Assembly (NCBI GenBank): GCA_914767715.1
Contig: OU612075.1
Coordinates: 4,464,001-4,528,000, forward strand
Reading direction: 5' to 3'
Origin: Membranipora membranacea
Lineage: Eukaryota > Bryozoa > Gymnolaemata > Cheilostomatida > Membraniporidae
DNA: 64,000 nt
Positions 3,095-61,176 of the stretch are shown here, piece by piece. Below the pieces are notes generated by a model, which worked only from the letters and a program-made list of their open reading frames with translations, had not been told where the DNA came from and made no database searches. Position 1 is the stretch's first letter, and the number at the start of each line of letters is the position of its first letter. A program made the position numbers and the translations under genes.

Positions 3095-6000
3095 ATGGCT
3101 TATCTCCAAGACATATCGAATCTCAGGGTGAGTAAGCTTAATCATCATTTTCAAAACCTTCTCCTGGCTATAAGAGAAGTGTTCTTGTATTTTTGGTGTT
3201 CTGGCCACGTGTGTCAGTCCAGCAGTAGAAAAGCGTTATCTGCTCCAATAAAAGCCTATATAATATTTTGCAAAAGCAATTGCATCTTCAGGGAGAAGTA
3301 ACTCCACTCAAGAGACAACCTCGTTGTTGTTTTAACTATGTATGTTCTTCAGTATCGTATCTATCGTGATACTGAAGGCTAGTATAGAATAATGAGAGAG
3401 TAGCATGTCAGTTGTAATGCAGCAAATATTAAGTCTCAAAGGAAGACGGAGGCACTCACGACTTAAATGCTGACTGCAAAATATTTATTGATTATTTGTT
3501 ACCATTATTGTTATTGCGATATTATTATCATGTTATTTGTTATCATTGGTTTGTTGACAGCAAAACCTGCAGTCACGAGACATGGGCTGTGTAGAGTGTA
3601 TGTGTGTGATGACTCTAATCCAGGAGCACGTCAGCTGTCGTCACTCCGACCATCACCAGGTACCACTGATATATCTGACCCTGAACAAGCGTATGGCTAT
3701 TCCTGTATAGTTGCTGGACCGCATTCCTCATCTTTGATTGGTCCACAAGTTCAGTATCTATCAAAACTTACGTCTAACAGCTTGTCTGAGTTTTTGAAGG
3801 TTGTTACTGGGATGTCAATCAATCCATAACGTGAAAGCTGCCAGATTTATAGCTTTATTTAGATCCTGAGACAAAGTTTTATACTGATGGCATATCTCCA
3901 CAAATAGCCACGCTATGTATTTTACCACTGATCCATAAATTCATATCACTGCCAGGTGCTGCCGGATCTATTCTTTGAGCTGACGGAATGGCAGCAGGCG
4001 GGATACAAACAGAAACTCAAATGGACGCTAGAATGCGACAGGTGCGACTTCAAAACTACGAGCAAAGGCAAAATGTTTGAACACGTCGCAACGCACCAGG
4101 TATGTTTGTTGGGAGCGTCTGTGACGGTTGGGTTAACCTACTGATGTTATGAAATGTATTATGCTTAGCTGGCATCTGCAACACAGGGACACAACTTTCT
4201 ACAAACCCTGTAGGAGTAAATATAAGCAATAATCTAGTTTCACTAATATGGGAGTGACTGGATGTTACTTAGCTTAGGGATTAAAAAGTGGGGTTTAAAT
4301 TGCAAGTCTGTCTCTGTCCAAAGACTGGGAAATAACAGCGGCGCAGGTGCCGTATTCGACGCCGATTCGCTCATAAGACCAAGACCTCAACGCTTGCATA
4401 TTAGAGGGCGGGCAACTTAGCTACCTCCTACTCCTAGGATTGAGCTTTATGAGGTAAAGATGGAGAAAATGTTAGCTAGCCAGAAATATTACTGTTTTTA
4501 AACAAAAGAAGTGAATGACTTACTCAATACTTCCCTTCTCCATGATAGTAGTCTTGTCATCTTTCATGGTATGGTTTATCCCCAACTCCTGCCGCTTAGG
4601 TGCTTTTTATCTCTAATAGCAAACAGAAGCATATGAAAACAAAAACTCCAGTAATGCCAATGTGGTTGTCCCTGCTATATTTTCCTTACGTCTTACTTTA
4701 TTTTTGGGAATCAAGTTGTGTGTCCCTGCAACATCTAGCGAGCTGGGCATAGTATTAAAAACGCAAGATTCTGTAGGCCTATGGTTCTGGGATTTGGTAG
4801 TTTGGGTAATTCCACGGCTTTTTATTGCACATACTTGAGTCCTGAGTTAATGTTTATGGTCATAACCAGTCAAAAGCGTCCTCTAAAACTTAGTCTAATA
4901 TTTACTTTTGTGTTTCATTCGACTACACGATTCTGTGCTTGCCCCAATCCTGGCTATAATTTGTTTGTATTTACGAATTCTTCTGGGCTTTACTAGGGTC
5001 AAATTCATGGAAGACAGTGGTGCCAGCCTTTTATTTGGCCGCGCATCATGAAAAGTTGATCTAAAAGGAGACTTCTGGCATTGCACCCACTACTTTGTAT
5101 CTCAATTCTTGCTGGAAATTAGACCCAACCTTGCAAAAACCTTTATATCACATCTGTACTAGATCAATTTTGACAGTATTCCAGTGGTTGCCACGCTTCT
5201 GGAGAGCTCCAACTCCAAATGCAGGCACGTTGGATCATGCTCCATCTGTGTCTATACCAGGCAATTCAATACTGCATAAATAGGGCTGTCTTGTTCAACA
5301 CAATCAGCAGGTTGCTTTTCCATATAAACTTTTAGCATACAAAAACCTAGCACATACAACAATATGTGCGTCTCTGTGTATCGTTTGTCAAGCATAGGTT
5401 TATCACCATAAAATTGTATTAGCAAAAGGCTGGAATTGGGTTACAAGTTACATCCATTGTATTTTGTATTTGTTTGAAAGAAATGCACATATACTGGTAA
5501 ACCCTTTAGGCTTGTTATGTCTCTGAACTACACAATAGCTACTCTGTCTTCTACCTTAGCTACCCACAATGAATATTGATTTGAATAATTACTATGTATA
5601 CCTACCATGACATGTCTTTGTTCGGCATACAAGTATTTTCATTGCATACATTTTACATGCGCATAATAATAGCCCATTAAGATGAATAATGTATTACTTA
5701 TACCCGTAATATACAATGCATGCAAGTATGTCATGTGGTTTATTAGCTGAGCGCCTAAAGTATACTAACGGTTGCAATATCTTGTATATTCAAGTAATTC
5801 AACCATGACAACTTTTGAGATAATGAATACGCTATGGATGAATAGATAGCTGGTAGACGCCTTTTTGTTTATAGTTGTTTGAAGCCAACCGAACAATGTT
5901 TGAAAAAATGGAGATGCAAAGCTTTTTTGACAAGATAAATGCACTGTTTATTGAACAGATAGTTAATGTATTTGATCACCTTGACTAACAGTTTGACATC

Positions 6001-18632: not shown

Positions 18633-20491
18633 AGGGTACAGACAAAAGCTATTAGAAGACAGGTGAATGACCACTTTACAATCACCGACCTGATACACCA
18701 GCTTCATAAACTACCTACCATCACAGTGAGTAATCAGGTGCAGTATATGGCCAATGTGTTGGCTCTGATCTAGACCAAGTTTGGTCCATCTGCCTGCAGT
18801 CGGAGTTGCTCCCGATCCACTGGTCACACAGCAGGCAAAGACCTTTGCCTGCTGTGTGACCAGTGGAAGGGAGCAACTGGAATACAGGCAACTGGATGAA
18901 ACTTGATCTAGCTCTGATCTGATTGGCTGTTGGGTGGGAAGAGAGCCAATGCCAGGTCACTGAATGCACCTATTGAGTTATAGTGAAAGTGAAACCGCTT
19001 TACTTCACATTCACTATGTAGCAGTAGGCACTCACAGGAAAGTATCTGACCTAGCATGGGCTATCTCTTTTCACCAGCCAATCAGCATAGACATCACATT
19101 TGCTAAAAGATTATAGTTATATACCTTGCCTCTAAAATAAATAAACTAACTGATATAGACTTATGTATAAGTAATAAACCATAGTATATGGACTGACGGA
19201 TGTCCTGCGACCATTATAAGTCAAGGTTAAAAAGGTATGGTGAGAAATAAAATTCGTTTCAGCTGTCAGTCCTCTTGATGATGATTCATAGCTATTTTCA
19301 ACTTGTTCTCATCTGCTATCGGTCATGTGTCTAGGACTCCAGGTACTCGCAGTTGCTGTAAAACAAATAACAATATTTTCTTGTAGCGAATCTAGTACTG
19401 AGTAAGGGTTTCGTGTATTGCTTGATCTATCATCATGCTATTTTTTATTATTCAGGTAGAGACTTTCGCAAAGCTGTCGATGACAGGCCGTGTACTCTAT
19501 GTGCACGGCCCAACAGCTACACAACACTGTATTAATTTACCTAAATCAACAAAGCAAACGGTCACAGTCATCAAAGGTTTGTCTACTTTTTCTAAATTTA
19601 TAGTAACTTGCGTTTTTCATGCAATGAATGCTTTTGTTTGCCGTTGAAAAGCTAGCCCTGAGCGCCATTTTAATTCCATAACGACTAGCACCGCCGATTG
19701 GAAGAATTGCCAATTCAAATTTGTTGAGTTTTTCTTATTTGCTATGATTGACAATCTGATCAATTTGGCATTTTCACACAATAAAACTGCGTGACAAGGC
19801 TAGGCAGGCTGGCAGAACAGAGTTCATCCAGCCAACAGGTTAGCTAAAATCAGGGATTTGTGAAACATTTTGTCCTTTTTTTGCAGAACGTAAGATGAAG
19901 GTGTCGGCTTATGAACTGGATGATCAGCAGGCAGTTGACCTAAGTAAGAGTGTTATGTAATATCTCATGCACATGTGTACCTGTGTTCATGATTACATGT
20001 GTACATGTGTACATGTGTACATGTGTACATGTGTACATGTGTACATGTGTACATGTGTACATGTGTACATGTGTACATGTGTACATGTGTACATGTGTAC
20101 ATGTGTACATGTGTACATGTGTACATGTGTACATGTGTACATATTTAATTTCCCATGTACAAATATCCCATGCACACAAAGGAAGTTGTGAGCTGAAATA
20201 ATATTCCCTAAATTGCCTAAGGTCGAAGAATAATCTGTACACTCGCTCATCTTTTGAGCGCATGGTATTTAATTGTTCCATTGTGGTGCATTGTTCTTTA
20301 TGCAATATGTACTGCGCGATATGTGAACGGCAATTTATTTATGTCGTGCAGGAAATAGCCCAGATGAAACTAAATACTCACTCACACTTTCGGATAATTT
20401 TCCTTTAGAGCAAACCAGCCTAGCCAATATACTTCTGCACCCATTTGCTATTGCCGATGTCTGCTCTTACAACCAATATAATCTTCAGTAG
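18633..20491 (+). CDS. Cassette 4: homologous alternative 3' end
   Basis: Exons 18633-18725, 19456-19576, 19887-19943 and 20352-20491 add 136 aa, making 429 aa with the shared half. Exon I has FTITDLIHQLHKLPTIT after a basic stretch. Exon II has VETFAKLSMTGRVLYVHGPT. Exon III has RKMKVSAYELDDQQAVDL. Exon IV stops at TAG 20489-20491. The last intron carries an (ACATGTGT)n array. A palindromic repeat at 18771-18912 follows the exon I donor. Confidence 0.58.
18771..18912. mobile_element. Palindromic MITE family D, long copy
   Basis: The outer arms match the other family D copies. The inner part is a long near-perfect hairpin: CCACTGGTCACACAGCAGGC followed by AAAG, mirrored by CTTTGCCTGCTGTGTGACCA. 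It sits about 45 bp after the donor of cassette 4 exon I. Confidence 0.7.
19995..20142. repeat. 8 bp tandem array (ACATGTGT)18.5
   Basis: About 18.5 near-perfect copies lie in the last intron of cassette 4. The unit alternates purine and pyrimidine throughout. Because eight is not a multiple of three, the array reads as the same octapeptide in all frames on each strand, which creates long but meaningless open frames. Confidence 0.95.
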
Positions 20492-38700: not shown

Positions 38701-41700
38701 TTTTGTTATTTGTATACTTTCAAGTCAACCTCTATAAATAAACGAATAAATGTTAAAAGGCTGAACCAAACAGCAAATGATGGATAGCTGGTAACACAGG
38801 GGTAGTATCTGTAAGACAAGCACAATGACAAGTATTCACCAACCTTTAAATCTGTAAGTTTCTTCTGTTCGAATGTATCGATGGCCTCCTCCAGCTGTTT
38901 AGCACTTCTAGAAGCCTGTACCTGAGCTTTGTGTAACTCTGTCTCTGCTTGGTTCTATAGAGAATTCGTGAAGGTGTTAAAGTTTACCAAACAAGGCAAT
39001 GGTAAGTTAGCACATAACGTAACACACCATAACACAAAGTGGCTAAGCTAAGTACCATCTGAACATTGTTTGGAGGTGTTATGTAATCAAGTTTAATCTT
39101 GAAAACAATGTCTCATCTATGACTAGGTTATCTAGTTCAATAATGGTGCAAAGAAACTTAATCTGCTAGTATTAAATTCCATTAATTTGAGGATTTTCAG
39201 TCATTTAATTCCAAATAGAATGACGTCATTGCACCTTATAGGATAGGTTATATTATTGAAATTGTTTAATTTTTAATAACTATATTGTGTAACTTAATTT
39301 GTCCTTACCAGTTTATGTCGATCACTGGGATTCTTCTCTCTCATATTATCCACAGCTTTCTTACTCTTCTGCTCTTTATCGTAAGCGGTGAAGGCTCCCT
39401 GTATCTCTTCCTGTTTGAATTAGATAAGAAAAATCAGGCAGGCTCCAATGTGAATTCTTTTATTGAGCTGTTTGGAAGGAGTATTTGTTGGATAAGAGTG
39501 ATGTTTTCATTCTTACGTGAAATGAAAATATTATAGATGAGCATCCACTTTAGTCATTGCAATGAGTATAGGAAAAACGGAATTGAATTGTGTTGATCTA
39601 TTTGTACAAGGGTCGAATTTCACTTTGGGTTGAGAATACATTTTTCATGGTTTCCATAGATAATTTTGTGGTTATGTTTCTAGTGAGTATCTTTTGTTTG
39701 CAACCTGAAATTAGATAGTCTTTTCAAATTAAACAAACCCTTGAGTTCTTGATGACAGTGTCGAATATCATGAGGGGCTCCACAACATGCGCCTCAACTC
39801 TCTTCACCTGAAATAAAGTATCAATTTGTTACTGAAATTGGCTGGGACAGGAAAAATAATGAATTTTAGCGGAATGCAAGAGTAAAAGTCATATTCTGCC
39901 AGTCAACAGTCTCGGAAAAGGTAAAAAAGTTTGGGATTTGTCACAAATTTCATTTCATTCATAAAACTTCTCAAAAGTATAAACATGTTCCCATCTGTAT
40001 AGAACCGGATAGTTTAAAATTGCTATACCCCAATTCCACTCAATTGATAAGTTATTTAATTGGTCATCTTACAGATTTATCTCAAAACTGTTTAATTTTA
40101 TTATCATGGCAGGGCTTTCATAACGGGCCAAGAATAAAGCATAACATACCATGGCGTCCTGGTAGTCGTTACAGCAGGCTAAATCTCTGGATACCTGTGA
40201 TAATGCTGCCTTACTGGAGCTGTTATATGTTACATTCTCAGAGTACTCCAACATATGCTGACATAACTCATCCTCTGATAAAATTACCATTACACCTTAT
40301 GACCAATTATGGCTTCATAAAAATAATACAATGAAGGTGAAATAAAAATATTTATAAGTATTTCCTATTGTTGGTATCCCCCCCCCCCAGAAGATCTCAA
40401 CTGCAGTTGTTACTTTCTTATTACTCCAATGAAGTAATCAATTATTTATGTAATTATTTGAATACAGTCGACATATCATATCTTGTCATACATGTGATAT
40501 AATAGTAAATATCCATAGATGCGTTAAAATCCCTGCATAAGCAAATACAACATTATCATTACGTATTGAACCAAGGAGTTAGAGGGGCTCTTACTCCTTG
40601 ATTAAACTATTCTTGAAAGGTTTTTCACTGATCATGGAGGCAATGAGCTAATGAATGGAAACAATATCTGCATACAACTATTTTGCCTACTTACGTTTAT
40701 CTCTCAGTTTGCCACTTTTTCTGGCTATAGATCCGAAATCATCACATAGGCTACCAAACGATCTTTCAACGTGTGTCACTCTGTCTTTTATGAATTTGGA
40801 TTTGTTGCCACTGAAAACAGCAACAGTTTTGCAGACAAACTCAATAAGGATAAAGAATGATACTAACAGATATTAGCTATTAGATGCAGCCACTGAATTA
40901 GATTATTCTCTTAGAATGGAAATAGTATCATAGCGTTATACGGTTAGGACACTAAACACAGGGACCCATCTGACTGTTATCTGATTGGCTGTCCCTGGTA
41001 GCATGAATAATTAGCCTGAGAAATTGTCTTGTTTACAGAATTGCAAACAGTAATTATACCCAATACAGTGTCGATGATTAGGGCATTTCTAGATTGCTAC
41101 TAGGGACCGGCTATTTTTGCAAGCCCTTTGTTTTGCAAAAGAAAGCTAATGATGCTATTCCAGATATGGAATTCAATGGATGCAGCATAAACGGTGCAAA
41201 TGAAGTGAGCTGATTTGGCAGCTTTATAACCACGTTGAGCAAAGTTACTCCAAATGGGCAACCTGTTTAGGATAAAGGATGATTGATAATAAAATTTTAT
41301 ATTACAAGTTTCACGCTGGTTCATTACGCCAAACAGGTGTTCCAAACCTATGGTATTTTCAGGGCATTGACTTGACCATAGGTAGGCTGTTTAACAGTCG
41401 GTAGAAGGAAATCTCATTGTATTCAGTGAGACGGCAAATTAATGCTACAATAAGGTCACTCTACAGGTAGAGCATGTATGAGCATATGGGTCTAGGGGAG
41501 GAAGGGGAGGGGTGAGAACAGATTACATTGTTGAGCCTTAGTCCATTATTTCCATAAATACCCTATATATCCAGAAGATGATATGGTATCTGTTATTTTA
41601 GATACTTTAACAAACTGTACTGCCAAGGGTTCTCAATTACCCCTTGGTACAGCTTGTATAACAACCCAACCCATCCTCTCCATTGATTGATACTGCATTC

Positions 41701-50216: not shown

Positions 50217-51245
50217 TTTAAAATCTTTGGAAGTGAATAAAAGACTGGCGTCTCTACCAACATAAGGTAACTCTCGTGAATGCACGATATGAGAAAGCAG
50301 TAAGAGAGGGACAACTCCGTGATAAGTATACAATATTAATTTTTTAATATAAGACTGTTGCATCTCCTTCACTCTAACTTCATAGTGTGAGCAAATCTTG
50401 TTTGAACGGATCGGATACTATTCTCCATATGTCATGACGTCAACAGTTTTGCAGCGTAATTACCGGGCGAGAGTTGTTGTTTTCAGATGTTAGTTATTTT
50501 CCTCCCTGTTATTGCCCTAGCTTATTATTTTGAATTATTTTGTCTGCAATTTTGTCTACCATATTTGACCGCATTCTTTAGTCTGCTGTTTGTCTGGGTG
50601 ATGTCCAGCAAAATTTTGGGTGGCAATGAAATGAATTATAATGCCTGGTTGGTGGGTTGGTACTTTGAACAGCTCAAGCAGTTTTATTATCTTTATTCTG
50701 ACTTTTGATTTTCACACAGAGTGTTAAACCTTTAAAAGTCTCGTTACTTAAAAAGTGACACCCTGTATTGAAAAAAACATGTTTTAAAAATTTCAGTAAA
50801 AATAATTTAAAAAGAGTAAAAAATCTATTCTTTGCGAGATATTATGTCCTGGTTAGCATATGAAAGTAAGCATACAGGGTTGGTTTTGAGTTTTATGAAC
50901 AATATACTTTTTCTCAACTCAGCTTTCTTGCTCAACGGATATATATGCTGAACGTAGCAGAAGAGTTAAAAAACTGGCATTACTAGAATATCAATACATA
51001 CATTGTTACAAAGAAGAAACACTGAGGAAATATTTTTATTCCATTTCTCTGTTGGCGCTATGAAAGTTTCAAACTATAGATCAGGATCATTGGTGGGAGA
51101 CATTAAAAGAACCTCAAGCATTAAGAAATAATGGTCAATCCAATGTAATTGTCTAGGATAAAATGGTCTTGTACAAGTTGGTGTGAAACTACTAAGTCGA
51201 GCTGGGTTATCAGTATAGAGCATTGAATTAAATTCTTCTCATGGA

Positions 51246-51495
51246 ATGGAAATAGTATCATAACCTTATACCATAAGAACACTCAACACAGGGACTGATC
51301 TAACGTTGTTTGATTGGCTGTCCCTACTAGCATGAATATCATAGCCTTGGAAATTGTCTCGTCTACAAATCTGCAAACAGTAATAAATTACCTTCAGCTT
51401 TGATGATTTTGGGCGTTTCTAGAATGCTACAAGGGACTGTCTTTTTTTGCAAGCCCTTTGTTTTGCAAAAGAAAGCTAATGATGCTATTCCAGAT
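51246..51495 (+). mobile_element. MITE family A, copy 2
   Basis: It starts ATGGAAATAGTATCATAACC and ends GATGCTATTCCAGAT. The interior matches copy 1 closely, including TTTTTGCAAGCCCTTTGTTT followed by TGCAAAAGAAAGC. Confidence 0.7.
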
Positions 51496-51596
51496 ATGGA
51501 ATTCAATGGTATAGAGGTACTATATACACTAGTAACTCTATGGGGAAAAGATATGGGATCAAGTTGTCTGATCGTTTCATGAATATTGTCACCAGC

Positions 51597-53099: not shown

Positions 53100-56000
53100 A
53101 TGAGTTTTTCTTCCGACTCCATTTTGCCTGTAAGAGATGTCTCGTTGAAATCTGCTCTCTATAATTCTGAGACAGAGAGAATCCATGTTGACATCAGTGG
53201 TGAGGTGAGTATTTTTCACGTCATGAATTATTTCAATAATCCAAAAATTCTTCAGAAATGCCCTTCATTATGAAAAGGGGAATATTATGAAGGATTATTT
53301 ACTATTATTACTATTATTAGTTTATTATTACTAGATTATTTACTGGAAAATATCTTCTTTTTTTGAAACAATTAATGACAGCAATCTTCAACTTTCATTT
53401 TGATCTCTCAAAGTGACACATGGGGTACAGAGGATTATAGAATATCTTCAGCAATATAATATAATATTAATTTTTTTATTCAAAATTTTTTTCTTGTTTT
53501 TCATCTGTTGCCTCTTTTAATCTAGTGTGCATTTTGTAACAAGGAGATAACAGAAATTGTCATCGATTTTTTTCCCGGTTATGGTTGGAAGTTTTGAAGC
53601 TGAAATCTACAATAAAACAAATAATCATCATTTGAGGTTAAAAAAAGACATCAAAGTTCCTGTCAGAGGAGACCACCAAATCATCATTCATACACATTGA
53701 TTTACTCTCACTTCTATAGGCGCTAGAGTATCCTCAGGAATGGTTGAGAGTTTATTGTCCATGTGAGCAGTGCTTTAATCCAAAGGCTCAGAGCTACCAG
53801 CTTAACTATGAACCGATAGCAGCAGCAACAGACATCAAACCAAACACAGTTTGTATTGATGAGGTTAGTGAAAGATGCTGACCAGGCAGATATTTTACGC
53901 GGCTGATGTGAATTTATCGATCAGTGGTAAAATACATAGCGTGGCTATTTGTGGAGATATGCCATTATATAAGACTTTGTGTCAGGATCTAAATAAAGCT
54001 AAAATTCTGGCAGTCTTTACGTTATGCGATGATTGACGTCCCATGAACTACCTTTAAAAACCCAGGCAAGCTGCTTGACAATAGTTTACCAGGGTCAGCT
54101 TTATTAGATTCTGAACTTCTGGACCAATCAAATATGAGAAATACATAAAAAGCCATACGCTTGTTCAGGATCAGATATGTTCCCTTCATCTATATAATAT
54201 ATAATATATATATCAGTATTCCATCTGCACATCTGCATTTCTCCGAATAATTGGTACTAAACGGTAACTACCATCAGGTCCCATAATGAAGAATTTTGCT
54301 GTAATGTGTGTGCTAAATATTTATATATACTGGTAGATGATTTTTGCTAATTATAAAGTGTTAGAAAATGTCTCTTTGCGGAGACCTTCTGTTAACAGCA
54401 CAAAGTTGCTTTAAAATTGCTGATGATCCACCTCCTTGCACAACCCAAAGCGCTGAGCTCAGGTCGCCCCTACAGTTCGTCGTGTTGTTATTTATTTAAT
54501 ATTTTGTTTTATTAGTTGATACTGAACAATTGATTTCACTGGATGGGATATTATAAAGTTTTTTTTACGGCGCTGTGTAAAATGAAGATGTTTAAAAACT
54601 GTTCCAAAAGACAGGACGTGTTGACAATAAAATAAACATGGATCATACATGAAACGTGATACATGTTAGTGGTTTGTATAATAATAGTAATTCATTTATT
54701 GCCGGCAACATTTCATCATTTCTAATTTTTTCATGATGTGGCGAACATAAATGGAAGAAAAAAGAAAAAGAATATTCACAACGATTCAACAAAAAATAAG
54801 ACTATGCCGATAAACTGAAAAAGTGTTGCATTAGCTTTTTCTTAGACCCTTTGATATTACTTTTATAATAAATAGTTAAAAGCCCTAAAACCTGTTATGC
54901 AAGTAAAATAATTTTGTAGCAATGGTAGTGGTAAAATTCTTAGGTATGAAGAGGAAGCTTCCACAACACACTATGATTCTACTACGATGCATTTAGAATT
55001 ATTACACCATATTTATCTCTGATTGGTTACAGAAACAGTTGAGGGTGGTTTACTCCGATGGCCATGTCATAGAAGTGTCTGCACAGTGGTTATATAACAG
55101 GCGTTTCACTGAGGATGGTGTGAAAGAAAGAATAGACAGTATCTATATCAGGAAACCGATAGCGTGGGAAGAGAACTTCACTCCTAAGAGAGCAAGCTAC
55201 AAAGATGTAAGTCTTAACTTTCATACGTGATGAGCATACATACCCTATTTGGTAGGGTAACACCAGATATTTGGACTAGAACTAGAACAAGTTTGTTCCC
55301 TCTGTGAGTGCGGATAAATACTAAAAGAGCTGTGTATCAAGAGGTTTCTGTCGCAGTGCCATGATACCCAGAACTTTTACATATCACTCCGCTAACAAAG
55401 ATATCAGTGAAATGTTTTAGTTTACTTTAGATTATTATCAGATCCGATATAAACATGTGATAATAAAAGTGAATCACAGGGTGCTCCTGGTAAAAACTTA
55501 CCTAAATATTATTGTCAAGGTACGACATAAAAAAAAAAAAAATATGCGTCGACTCTCCTCAGTGCAACATCGCTTTGGTCTAAAGTTGTTGACTGTACGA
55601 GAAGATATTCGCGTGAAGTCATTCAAAATGAATGTATTATGTAGTGGGTAGGTTGGATCATTTAAAACTTTACTTAATTGCTTGAATTTTTATCACCAGG
55701 TTGTCAATGAAAACAGGATACTATGGTTATTTGCTTGGCCCAATGTCATGAGTTTGGCTTTCAACCAATTATAACTAATTGCTTTTAAGTTGGAATTTTT
55801 TGCACATAATAATAACTTTGTTAATCCTCGCTAGATTTAGGCTAATTAGCAGCTATTTCAAAATGAAACAGCGCTACGAACATTTTAAAATTTCAAAACA
55901 TTTTTAATAAAATGTTTTAATCGCTCTCAAATTGCTCATTAAGGATCAAAATATGCACCAAATGTTTCCACTGGGACGCTGGCCTGCGCCCGGAAGGAAA

Positions 56001-59000
56001 GCTAAACGGCGGCCAAGTGACCCCCGGCTGTGGATGGGCTAAGCACCGCCAGCCAACTTGTCATGCATGGATAAGCTGGCCACATTGTCTAGGTCTAAGT
56101 TTTGGTTGTGACTGAGTACTCGAAAGAATTGAATTCATGTAACAATTACATAGTAATTTTTATATCTTCCCACACCATTGCCAATATTGTATCTACATTT
56201 AAATAAAGGAAATAATATTATCCTGTCAAAAAATTTGATGGAAATTATTTATGAATTATTTTATTTTTTATTTTTGTATTGTTAACACTTTTATTACTTA
56301 ATTACATGAAAATAATAATATTCTGAATAGATACTGGAGATGGGAGACATGTTTGAGTATTTTGGTGATCGCCTGTGTAAGGATGGTATGTTCATAATCA
56401 CAGATGTACCCGATAAATGGGTTAAGGATGAGTATGCTGAGAAGACTGGACAGTATACCATACCTACTCATTATGGGTAAGTATACAATACTTCTCACTA
56501 GGTGTATTGATGACGTGTGATATACTATTGCATGTATATCTCTGATCAATAGAGTGTGAATTAATTCATTTAGCATGAGTACCATCAGAAGGAATTTGGT
56601 GTGACGACCCATGTTCAATTTTATCAATAAGGGGTGGGTACATGTAAGGTACTGCTACTAAATTGACTCTAACTATCAGAGATACACATGATAATAGTCT
56701 GTGTCAGTGTGCTCACCAGGTGCATTTCAGGGCCCTAGTGTAGAAAAATATGGTAGGGGAGGCAAAAGTTACTGAAGACACAAAGTAACACCAGGTAAAT
56801 TGATAGCGAATGGAAGCAAAAATTGAGCCGATTCCGGTATGGATTATCTAATTATTTTATTTAGGCATTCTTGAGGAGGCAGTGCACCCCTGCTTCCCCT
56901 AGATCTACGGCCCTGCATTCACAATCATGTCCTGAAAACCGGCAATGTTTTTCCTAAAATCTGGTACCTAGATGGTCACCATCAACTAGATTGAAAATTA
57001 AAATTTTGGCAGGCAATACTATACCTTTAAATAAATGGCAGACCTGCACGTCCTGTTATTGTTATTCACAAATGTAATTTCGCTATTATGTTTGCCTGAT
57101 TGACCAACCAATTGCCAATCGGAAGGTATCCTTCATTCAGAAAACTACCATACAATTGTATCGAGATTCCTCATCATTCAGTTTAACCTTATAATTTTGT
57201 TATGACAATTCATGAAATTTCCGTTTTGACTGATATTCACGTGGACCAATATGTTTGTACTGTTTGTTGGCAGGCAGTTCTTTGATGTTCAAAACAAACC
57301 GACGCCCACTAATGGAGCTTACACTACCGGTAAACTGGAGCTGCATGTGGATCTGACACATCTCATAGCCACCCCACAGGTTAGTGAGGAATATGAAACA
57401 AGTAAAACCACAAACAAAATATAAGTTATATTTAATGTTACGTATAATATTAATATTATGACTTTTGTGAAAAACACATTAATCCAGGAACAAGAAACTA
57501 TGTTTTATGAGATCCTTGAGAAAGTGTACAGTAATACTAACTAGGAGTAGGACTGCGTTCCATCGACCAACCAACCTGCCTGCAAACAGAGAGCAACCTG
57601 GCGCAGATATTTCAGCTCGCCACTACGGCAACAAATTTTGCCGCCCATGCTTTGGGATGTGGGGTGTGACAAGAATCTGATTTTAATCAACCGTTTTAAA
57701 AAAAAACACTACTAGAGGTTACTGCATACAGTATAAGCTCTTATAAATTTGGATATTACAATGTATCTTTTTTTTGTTGCTGTGGTATATACGGAAATAT
57801 TGCCAAACCCTGTTGAAAATATTTCACTTTTGAACAAATAGACAGAAAGTTGGATACTTGGAAAATATGTTTACATACGGCGTCAATCACCCAGTACTAG
57901 TTGGCTGATGTCTGCAAATCTATGAATACCCGAGAGCAGTAGCTATTTCCATTGTCATACAGGCTTGAAATACAGAAGATTATGGCGGGCAAGCATTCAT
58001 CCCATTGAATTCCATATCTGAAATATGAAATCATTAGCTTTCTTTTGCAAAATAAAGGGCTTGCAAAAATAGCCAGTCCCTAGTAGCAATCTAGAAATGC
58101 CCTAATCATCGACACTGTAGGGGTATAATTACTGTTTGCAATTTTGTAAACAAGACAATTTCTCAGGCTAATTATTCATGCTACTAGGGACAGCCAATCA
58201 GATAACAGTCAGATGGGTCCCTGTGTTTAGTATGATACGCTATGATACTATTCCATTCTAAGAGAAGAATCTAATTCGGTGATTCATCCATATAATATAA
58301 TGCTCCCCCCCCCCCCGAGCTGACAAAGTTTGTGCTCGCTAACTTTAAGTCACTCCCAAACTAGCCAAACTTTGGAAAGTAACGATATGTAATACAGAAC
58401 AAGACCTGTTTAATCATCAGCAATATGCTTCGTTTGTAAAAATGAATACAAAAATGTATAAGTAAAACACATAATATATCTATATTTATATCTCAACTTT
58501 ATTTGCCGTCAAGTCACTAAGACATACAATATTACATGAGTAATACATACATTTGAAATAAAACATAAATTATTAAGTAATGAATATCTCTAACTGTCTC
58601 TCTGTTGCACAGATACAGTACTTGCACTTTATGATCCAGTCCGATAACGGAGGTGAGAGTATAGTGTGTGACAGCCTGAAGGCCGCCCTACTCCTCAGAG
58701 AGAGATACCCGGATCACTATAAGACTATGACACAGGTACACTGATATATATTATATGGATGAGGGTTACATACCGACCCTGAGCAAGCGTATGGCTATTC
58801 ATGTGTGGTTGCAGGATGCATTTCTCATCTCTGATTGGTCCACAAGTTCAGAATCTAAAACATCTGACTCTTGTAAACTTTTGTCAAGCAGCTTGCCTGA
58901 GTTTTTGAAGGTTGTTACTGGGACGTCAATCAACGCATAACGTAAAAGCTGCCAGATTTTTAGCTTTATTCGTACCCTGACACAAAACTTTATACTATCT

Positions 59001-61176
59001 CCACAAATAGCCAAGCTATGTATTTTACCACTGATCCGTATATTCATATCAATGCACAGGTACCCATACACAATGAGGATATCATACAGTGTGGAAAGGT
59101 TGATCAGGCTGTGTATATGGCTAACAGCCAGCCAGTTATCATGTAAGTTTTATAAACTAAGAAGTATAAATCATTATATAAGTATGATTTAGATGTTACA
59201 AAACCAATCGTAGATATTTTATCATGCCAAAAACCAGAACCTCAAGATTTTTGTCCAGCTTTGTGCCTTTTAGTATTCGCCTTCTTAATAAATGAGAGAT
59301 GTGGTTGACACCTAAATTGTAATGTGTTTTTAACACAATTACCAAAAATAAACTCAATCTCAACTGTACAAGATTTATAAATCATATAGTTATATTATTA
59401 TTAACGACAATAGAGATGTAGCAAAATCTGCCCTAAAACGTGAAACAATACTAGATATGACAATTTTACATATCATGAGAAGACAATTACACAATGATAG
59501 AATAACATTAACGATGTAATCTAATCGGGATTAGTTCTATCCCTACCGTATTTTTCCCTTTTTCCCCACGCCCTTTTATTTCCTGCTCTATATAGAAATC
59601 ATTTCTTGATCAGTACTTTTTTAGACAACCATTAAAGGTATTCTAAAAATTAAAATAAGTTGCTACTTAAAATTGTAAATAGCACACATGAAATGTGTAT
59701 GCTTGACTACCTATGTTTGGCTTACTTAATACTTGACAATGTATGTGTGTTTGTATTCTGTTGTATCATTATATCAGTATATAAACATGTGCCTTACTGG
59801 AGTAGATTCCACTAGACTAAAATCTATGTGATGTTTTACAGATTGAAGGATGGAGAGCCAGGATTGGCTGTCCCTACTAGCATGAATAATATAGCCTTAG
59901 AAATTGACTTGTTTACAAAACTGCAAACAGTAATAAAATAACTTCAGCGTCGATGATGTGGGCATTTCTAGAATGCTATTAGGGACTGGCTATTTTTGCA
60001 AGCCCTTTGTTTGACAAAAGAAAGTTAAATATGCTATTCCGGATATGAATGTCGATAATATTTTACAGATTGAAGGACGGAGAGCCGGCATGGACTAACT
60101 GGTCGTTCCACGGACGCAGCAGCTTCTTTAACGGATCCATAGATGACTGTGAGAGACACACAGCAGCACTCAGGGAATATTATAAACTCATGCAGGAATG
60201 CAGCATAGTCATCAAAAACACTTCAGGTATACATACACATACAGTTTAGATGTAGCCAATGAGTTGGCTCTGATTGGCTGGTGGAAGCCAATCAAATCAG
60301 AGCCATCACTGTAGTTTATCGTTATTGACATATCACAATACCATCAGCATATTGCTTCAAGAGAAATATATGTTATAATATCAACCTGCTTTAGATAGAC
60401 AAATAAATGGTTGGTAAGACTCAACACTGTGCTACTATAATTACATGCTGAACATCATCTTGTTCGTAAGCTAAGAGCCCTTTATTAGATCACTCATATA
60501 AGATATGCGAGTCTAGATACACATTGGGCCTCTAAACCCCAAAATTGAGAGATAATAAACAATGTATGTGATCAACATGTTTGGTTGAAATAAGATTTAT
60601 TTCCAATGCCTAATGCTAAGTTTACCATAAACCGATCCGATCAAAACATGAGTAATTTGGTTATTGTGAACAGGAAGTCCTTAAATGATGGATGAAAAAT
60701 AATCTTATCTGAAAATCTGGAGTTATCATTCCAGAAAATAAGAAGAGACAATCTGTATGTGTGTAGTTCAAGCTCTCTAACTTTGCTGGGGTTGCTGGTA
60801 TTGGCATATAAGCGACCTGGCAATGTTTAGGCACTACAATAAGTATGTGCGCTTAATACAAAGAAAGAAAGGACTGGCAAAAGTATAGAACCCAGATAAT
60901 CATTTGATTTAGTTTGTAGATACCTTTGGTCAAGAATGCCATTTATCTGCAGGGAAATAATCTAGGCTTGACTTCAACTAATAATTGAATGACTTATATT
61001 CTGGTATGTTTTTTGTTGCAGGAGATATTATGGTAACCGATAACCAAAGAGTGATGCACGGTAGGCTGTCCTATCAGTCAGACCAGAAGAGGAAGTTAGA
61101 GGGCTGGTACTCAGGCTGGGACTCCATGCTCTCACAGCTCAGAGTACAGAAAATAAAAAAGATGAACAGGCAGTAA
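53100..61176 (+). CDS. BBOX1: Gamma-butyrobetaine dioxygenase-like 2-oxoglutarate oxygenase
   Basis: Nine exons: 53100-53204, 53720-53863, 55033-55206, 56331-56476, 57274-57379, 58613-58735, 59060-59142, 60069-60226 and 61022-61176. They sum to 1194 nt in frame (397 aa; human BBOX1 has 387). The N-terminal zinc-binding DUF971-like domain shows CPCEQC plus the later DGHV histidine. The catalytic TauD-like core follows: GMFIITDVP, then AYTTGKLELHVDLTH with the HxD iron ligands, and RVMHGRLSYQSDQKRKLEGW with the distal iron histidine and oxoglutarate-binding Arg region. It likely hydroxylates gamma-butyrobetaine in the last step of carnitine synthesis. Trimethyllysine dioxygenase (TMLHE) is the alternative, but no mitochondrial leader is seen. 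AATAAA is at 61462-61467. Intron 6 is an introner-like repeat, and the exon 8 junction is partly duplicated. Confidence 0.88.
53900..54217 (-). mobile_element. Repeat family B, copy 3 (inside BBOX1-like intron 2, antisense)
   Basis: The reverse strand carries ACTGATATATATATTATAT, GATCCTGAACAAGCGTATGG and CACGCTATGTATTTTACCAC, as in the other two copies. Here it is a partial occupant of a 1.17 kb intron, in the opposite orientation, about 35 bp from the donor. No clear target duplication was found. Confidence 0.75.
54695..54845 (+). repeat. Dispersed repeat family H, copy 2
   Basis: ATTTCATCATTTCTAATTTT and GACTATGCCGATAAACTGAA then AAAGTGTTGCATTAGC match 24420-24580. It lies in BBOX1-like intron 2. 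Confidence 0.5.
56515..56702 (+). mobile_element. MITE family C, copy 4
   Basis: GTGATATACTATTGCATGTA then TATCTCTGATC at the left and ATCAGAGATACACATGATAA at the right match copy 3. It starts about 38 bp inside BBOX1-like intron 4, again close to a donor. Confidence 0.7.
58013..58258 (-). mobile_element. MITE family A, copy 3
   Basis: Reverse orientation. It carries GGGCTTGCAAAAATAGCCAG, then CATGCTACTAGGGACAGCCA and ATACTATTCCATTCT, closely matching copy 1. It lies in BBOX1-like intron 5. Confidence 0.75.
58736..59059 (+). mobile_element. Introner-like repeat family B, copy 2 (whole intron 6 of the BBOX1-like gene)
   Basis: The element spans about 58740-59054. The 9 bp CACAGGTAC is present at 58731-58739 and again at 59055-59063, spanning both splice junctions. 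Splicing therefore restores the single-copy sequence exactly. The interior (GACCCTGAGCAAGCGTATGG onward) matches copies at 3660-3955 and about 53900-54217. Confidence 0.8.
59834..60086 (+). mobile_element. Truncated MITE family A insertion duplicating an exon start
   Basis: A family A copy lacking its first 80 or so bp (59862-60047) lies between two copies of a 26 bp segment with one mismatch (59834-59859 and 60061-60086). That segment contains the acceptor TTTTACAG and the first 18 bases of BBOX1-like exon 8. The downstream copy is the one that continues into the full exon; the upstream copy is a decoy that runs into the MITE. Confidence 0.75.

Follow-up and report, generated by a model that had tools for sequence, protein, structure and literature searches.

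The 64-kb stretch of DNA analysed here (the window: positions 4464001-4528000 of chromosome 11 of Membranipora membranacea, Bryozoa) contains a gene similar to that of gamma-butyrobetaine dioxygenase (BBOX1), and one intron of this BBOX1-like gene coincides with a single transposable element. Insertion of that element, a DNA transposon of a short repeat family that we call family B, into an uninterrupted exon very probably created the intron (58736-59059). Creation of an intron by a DNA transposon is supported because the element is bordered by a perfect (8/8) duplication, because its ends are common to scattered copies of the family and, above all, because two paralogues carry the corresponding exon whole.

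An intron made of one element

The intron lies on the forward strand, is 324 nt long and in phase 0, and runs GTAC...ACAG, as read from the sequence and the frame. The exon before it (58613-58735, +, 123 nt, ending ...ATGACACAG) is recognized by continuity of the open reading frame, alignment with the paralogues, and matches to BBOX1 and the TauD domain; the exon after it (59060-59142, +, 83 nt, starting GTACCCATACAC...) is placed by comparison with the paralogues. Excision of the intron joins ...YKTMTQ/VPIHNED... in a single frame (here and below the slash marks a junction). Left unspliced, the frame hits a stop, TGA, at the third intronic codon, and therefore splicing is required for the full protein. 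Similarity to TauD and BBOX1 continues in the exons past the intron despite this stop, and the C-terminal exons, once joined, are similar to human gamma-butyrobetaine dioxygenase in PDB (E 1.6e-23) and to Pfam TauD (E 2.8e-22).

The intron consists of GTA, the element and CACAG, bounded by one duplication. The element is a hAT-like non-autonomous copy of family B (58739-59054, +, 316 bp) with the termini CACTGATAT...ATATCAATG, delimited by its borders and by alignment to the family consensus. Positions 1-326 of the consensus align to 58739-59054 at 90.8% identity, which bears out an earlier, sequence-only reading of this DNA that family B fills the intron. On either side stands the 8-bp sequence CACAGGTA, at 58731-58738 and 59055-59062 (both +), the two copies matching at 8 of 8 positions; each spans CACAG/GTA, and the left copy is the predicted source of the donor, the right one that of the acceptor. 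The sequence-only reading had placed the intron and a 9-bp repeat at 58731..59063. The repeat is indeed present: the window has just two copies of the 9-mer CACAGGTAC, starting at 58731 and 59055, and no other 9-mer recurs at a spacing of +324 among the 63,300 window positions tested. The duplication proper is 8 bp long, however, and the intron is confined to 58736-59059. The ninth base (C) is a chance match of the element's first base with an exon base, because aligned copies of the family run CACTGATAT...ATATCAATG with 8-bp repeats on their flanks.

The exon is uninterrupted in two paralogues

When the same genome (18 contigs, 339,339,785 bases) was searched with the joined peptide, two paralogues emerged. 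Residues 33-106 align in one stretch on chromosome 3 and residues 37-107 in one stretch on chromosome 1, both spanning the intron site between residues 77 and 78. At the site each paralogue has one exon between an acceptor and a donor, of 206 nt on chromosome 3 and 200 nt on chromosome 1; the search output marks stops within the paralogue stretches, and the exons between the splice signals are free of them. The preceding acceptor and the following donor stand at the same places and in the same phase in all three genes, and the two exons split here sum to 123 + 83 = 206 nt, the length of the chromosome 3 exon. The intron is without a counterpart in both of the paralogues found, each of which has a whole exon there. 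Since the paralogues have diverged, they are evidence for the absence of the intron and not for the original letters of the site.

A proposed course of intron gain

We propose that a non-autonomous hAT-like copy of family B, presumably moved by a hAT transposase, inserted at CACAGGTA in what would have been a whole exon of the gamma-butyrobetaine-dioxygenase-like gene. The 8-bp target-site duplication would put AG/GT at both ends of the element, the left copy acting as the donor and the right copy as the acceptor. The element would contribute the body of the intron and probably the branch point too: TTTTACCACTGAT (59023-59035, +), which lies within it about 25 nt 5' of the acceptor, resembles a branch point and may serve as one. 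With RNA splicing predicted at both CACAG/GTA sites, loss of GTA, element and CACAG would keep the frame and the exon length of the chromosome 3 paralogue. The sequence-only reading had likewise held that the AG/GT of the target site gives both splice sites of an intron created by a DNA transposon, and the perfect duplication, the shared ends and the two uninterrupted paralogues agree with it.

A few observations weigh against this account. The donor, CAG/GTACAC, is weak, scoring 4.7 vs. 9.3 and 5.0 for the gene's next two donors, with approximate donor weights and a set of seven scored positions of which three are not true donors. The acceptor tract of the intron is poor in pyrimidines. Use of the splice sites is read from the DNA, and the comparison covers homologues within this one genome; a protein search that also looked for orthologues left none of its 96 candidates. 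The hAT membership is drawn from duplication length and ends alone; no transposase has been linked to family B, and no search for one was made.

Family B

Self-comparison of the window gives three copies of family B: the one in the intron, a second at 3664-3951 (+), whose border at 3664 was placed by eye, and a third at about 53904-54203 (-). The third is eroded at its end and lies inside a larger intron of the BBOX1-like gene (exon end 53863); it is not an exact intron. In the genome search, 40 of 1515 first-look candidates were scored and 39 places besides this intron were taken with 1-kb flanks; together with the three window copies they make up the 42 copies examined. These start with CACTGATAT and finish with ATATCAATG, with changes, and have 8-bp direct repeats on their flanks, the duplications matching at 7 or more of 8 positions at unshifted borders in 23 of the 42. 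The consensus of 326 bp was made from 34 copies, L036, L038, L039 and L043-L047 having been dropped as array duplicates. Its terminal inverted repeats, CACTGATAT and the reverse-complemented end CATTGATAT, are alike at 8 of 9 bases. Members of the hAT superfamily make 8-bp target-site duplications and have short termini of the CAnTG type. Because family B has 8-bp duplications and CAnTG ends, its features point to a hAT-type non-autonomous element.

The copy in the intron differs from the consensus by 0.066 substitutions per site and the second window copy by 0.069. All 42 copies range from 0.058 to 0.138, a range that is biased low because 39 of them were chosen by likeness to this intron. 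Since both intron copies fall within it, they can be put in one age class with the other family-B copies seen.

There are also two clusters of neighbouring duplicates, each with a family-B copy at nearly the same target site. One comprises L022 and L044-L047 (C3:17.5-17.7 Mb) and the other L034, L036, L038, L039 and L043 (C6:16.4-16.7 Mb).

A probable second exact intron

The second window copy (3664-3951, +) has the duplications CCAGGTAC at 3656-3663 and CCAGGTGC at 3952-3959, alike at 7 of 8 positions, and it exactly fills a probable intron, 3660-3955. The flanks of this intron can be read in one common frame. Upstream is a probable exon of a zinc-finger-like gene (3561-3659, +), recognized by the frame that it shares with the next exon and by its codon score, which is 8.1 in the shared frame and -11.1 and -0.9 in the others; among 47 stop-free non-coding windows the maximum was 7.5 and the mean -4.4. 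The codon training set excluded the second exon of this gene. That exon, downstream (3956-4099, +), is placed by its frame and has weak C2H2-finger matches below the Pfam cut-offs. The genome search for a useful paralogue of the gene recovered, besides the query gene, a pair of weak matches (E 0.24 and 2.8). Because no paralogue with a useful score was found, the case for the second intron is built on frame, codon score and duplication, and 3660-3955 is probably a second exact family-B intron.

Copy number and target sites

A 19-base pattern of the family-B end, with up to two mismatches allowed, is found at 831 places in the genome (405 + 426), vs. 3 + 0 for the backwards control. Among the 100 matches listed of the 831 (all of them exact), AGGT lies within the first 8 bases of the 3' flank in four; when flanks within two mismatches of each other are merged, it lies in 2 of 72. 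The composition of those same 3' flanks predicts 1.2% per copy. The frequency in this sample is near the expectation, and we see no sign in it that family B seeks AGGT. In the 42 copies, AGGT is present in both duplications at only three loci: this intron, the second window copy and an array of five copies on chromosome 3. A scan of the window for flanked inverted-repeat elements likewise gave no excess, with three AGGT rows (two of them this element in two registers) vs. 2-4 rows apiece for the five other cores tried; it missed the second window copy because identical duplications were demanded.

Patterns that include AGGT were searched for as well. An unrelated repeat accounts for most of the 50 places of the first: of 30 loci only two, both in the chromosome 3 array, match the consensus, and of the remaining 20 places only this intron resembles family B by its letters. 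The pattern ACCACTGATN{8,28}CANTGN{0,4}AGGT has 11 places, four of which are family B (this intron, the second copy and two copies of the chromosome 3 array). For TTCATATCANTGN{0,4}AGGT, 100 of 138 places were listed; 15 of these were examined (L096-L105, L109-L113) and four were already known as family B (C1:23411212, which is L095, and three in the chromosome 3 array), the other 81 being set aside by their letters as a second repeat, an assignment verified only in L109-L113. A pattern for the AATG end has 14 places, all of them listed, and the remaining 38 of the 138 are covered as far as they fall among these. Of the 19 candidates taken from the patterns (L095-L113), L098 is a full family-B copy and L095 a 57-bp fragment; none of the remaining 17 aligns with the consensus, in either orientation, at E <= 1e-3.

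All patterns together yield five AGGT-flanked family-B loci: the two introns, the chromosome 3 array, the copy L098 on chromosome 6 and the fragment on chromosome 1. Two exact introns are thus recognized among the five, as among the 42 copies. This count is a lower bound, as the patterns require intact ends and sense orientation and miss eroded or otherwise spliced copies. The chromosome 3 array (five copies, ATCAGGTA) was rejected as an exact intron; it lies downstream of an exon-like stretch, and its surroundings have no continuous translation in the two of five copies inspected. The copy L098 (positions 333-673 of C6:20073751-20074700) is inserted precisely at the donor that ends a protein-kinase-like exon (HRDLKPE/GTAAC). 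Its duplication, GAGGTAAC, gives two tandem donors with the element between them, and this copy is evidently an insertion at an already existing exon-intron border.

It should be noted that most places of the first AGGT pattern (many of L048-L077) belong to a repeat starting AGGTGAACACTGATATTGCTGGGCTTAAACG, present on every large contig listed. Its copies are near-identical in the printed letters, and it is possibly a young mobile element. Dozens of the TTCATATCANTGN{0,4}AGGT places end in TTCATATCACTGGNNAAGGT, which marks a repeat of another kind, L109-L113 showing no match to family B; the copies L109, L110, L111 and L113 align with one another at 82-99%.

Weighing the alternatives

The sequence-only reading had called this an introner-type gain. 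The mechanism fits, but the stronger claim, which makes family B a genuine Introner family, an intron-adapted transposon with AGGT targeting or exon enrichment and many exact introns, is very unlikely to hold. In its favor, two of the three window copies resemble exact introns, and the genome counts depend on intact ends. Against that stand the rarity of AGGT in both duplications (three loci among the 42 copies), its occurrence in the 3' flanks (4/100, or 2/72 merged, vs. the 1.2% expected) and the yield of the AGGT patterns, where just two of five family-B loci are introns. The sample, with two exact introns and no AGGT excess, does not support a specialised family. The sampled copies are largely scattered without relation to splice sites, a pattern that the sequence-only reading had named in advance as telling against it; this weakens the label of an introner family and does not refute the gain at this locus. 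The other sign that it had named, the same intron position in distant orthologues that lack family B, has the two paralogues against it.

The position of the intron could instead be old, the element having entered or adjoined an earlier intron whose sequence later vanished. Insertions of this kind exist, as L098 on its kinase-like donor shows, and the third window copy lies in a larger intron of the very gene considered here. Yet there is no remnant of an older intron between the two duplications, both paralogues are continuous at the site, and splicing would give just the length of the chromosome 3 exon, so that we hold this explanation to be very unlikely. Even less credence, indeed hardly any, can be given to an ancestral intron lost in both paralogues, with the direct repeat a coincidence of splice consensus. 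AG/GT does belong to that consensus, and four of the eight repeated bases are less surprising for it, but two losses would be required, as well as an intron equal to one complete transposon with an 8/8 duplication. We therefore prefer the view that the family-B insertion made the intron. The family would have no special preference for AGGT and would give introns only where an insertion in an exon meets AGGT.

Other repeats of the window

About 26 bp of acceptor and exon start (TTTTACAGATTGAAGGA[T/C]GGAGAGCC) are present twice within 59834-60095. One copy is at a real exon of the BBOX1-like gene near 60062; the other, near 59834, immediately precedes an incomplete copy of a different repeat and is either a duplicated exon start or a decoy acceptor. 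A second short repeat family occurs at 40883-41186 and also at 51225-51512, 58001-58282 and 59862-60047. One of its copies has an 8-bp direct repeat, GATGCAGC, and the ends CACTGAATT/CATTGAATT; the family is possibly another hAT-type miniature inverted-repeat transposable element (MITE) with ends like those of family B. The long open frame at 19940-20338 (-) is largely simple repeat (HVHMYTCT repeated) and unlikely to be a gene.

Implications

Well-documented new introns are scarce in animals, and here a single locus displays the mechanism, with element, duplication, frame and paralogues with the whole exon. It may be, although we put the chance somewhat below even, that introns can be made without any specialised "introner": a hAT MITE of the ordinary sort in an animal, one that does not select its targets, would produce them as often as its insertions in exons hit AGGT, the rest being purged. 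If so, a small and predictable crop of such introns is to be expected in bryozoans and perhaps in many animals that have had bursts of MITEs, a crop that surveys demanding many look-alike introns have overlooked. As hundreds of family-B copies lie elsewhere in the genome, it permits a direct estimate of the rate at which exon insertions become introns and of the need for specialisation.

Comparison with known systems

Introner elements are reportedly the subject of Huff et al. 2016. With hAT MITEs, as we know them, family B shares 8-bp duplications, short CAnTG-type termini, a length of about 300 bp and many copies. It differs in that most hAT MITEs have, to our knowledge, not been described as makers of introns; its own assignment to them is by its ends alone.

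In the excerpted text of Gozashti et al. (2022; PMC9860276), Introners are families of many look-alike introns, found in 175 of 3,325 genomes, with only two animal groups among the hosts, and gene-enriched in 161 of the 175. Some of these families take their splice sites wholly or partly from the duplication, and in a case from Florenciella sp. the insertion site supplies both (excerpts of PMC9860276). Among the animal-group words looked for in that text, "copepod" was the sole one found; the host here is a bryozoan. Bryozoans were not mentioned among the listed literature matches on introners, intron gain and transposons, and prior publication is still possible; the main text of the Flustra genome paper has neither "intron" nor "introner". 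Family B further departs from Introners, as the excerpts of PMC9860276 portray them, in having hundreds of copies with two exact introns recognized and no AGGT excess seen. The likeness, within the same excerpts, is in the process itself: a whole intron is formed from a non-autonomous DNA transposon by way of a target-site duplication, and the length of the mRNA is usually unchanged by splicing, as predicted at this locus. The proposed mechanism of intron gain at this locus is the same as that of Introners.

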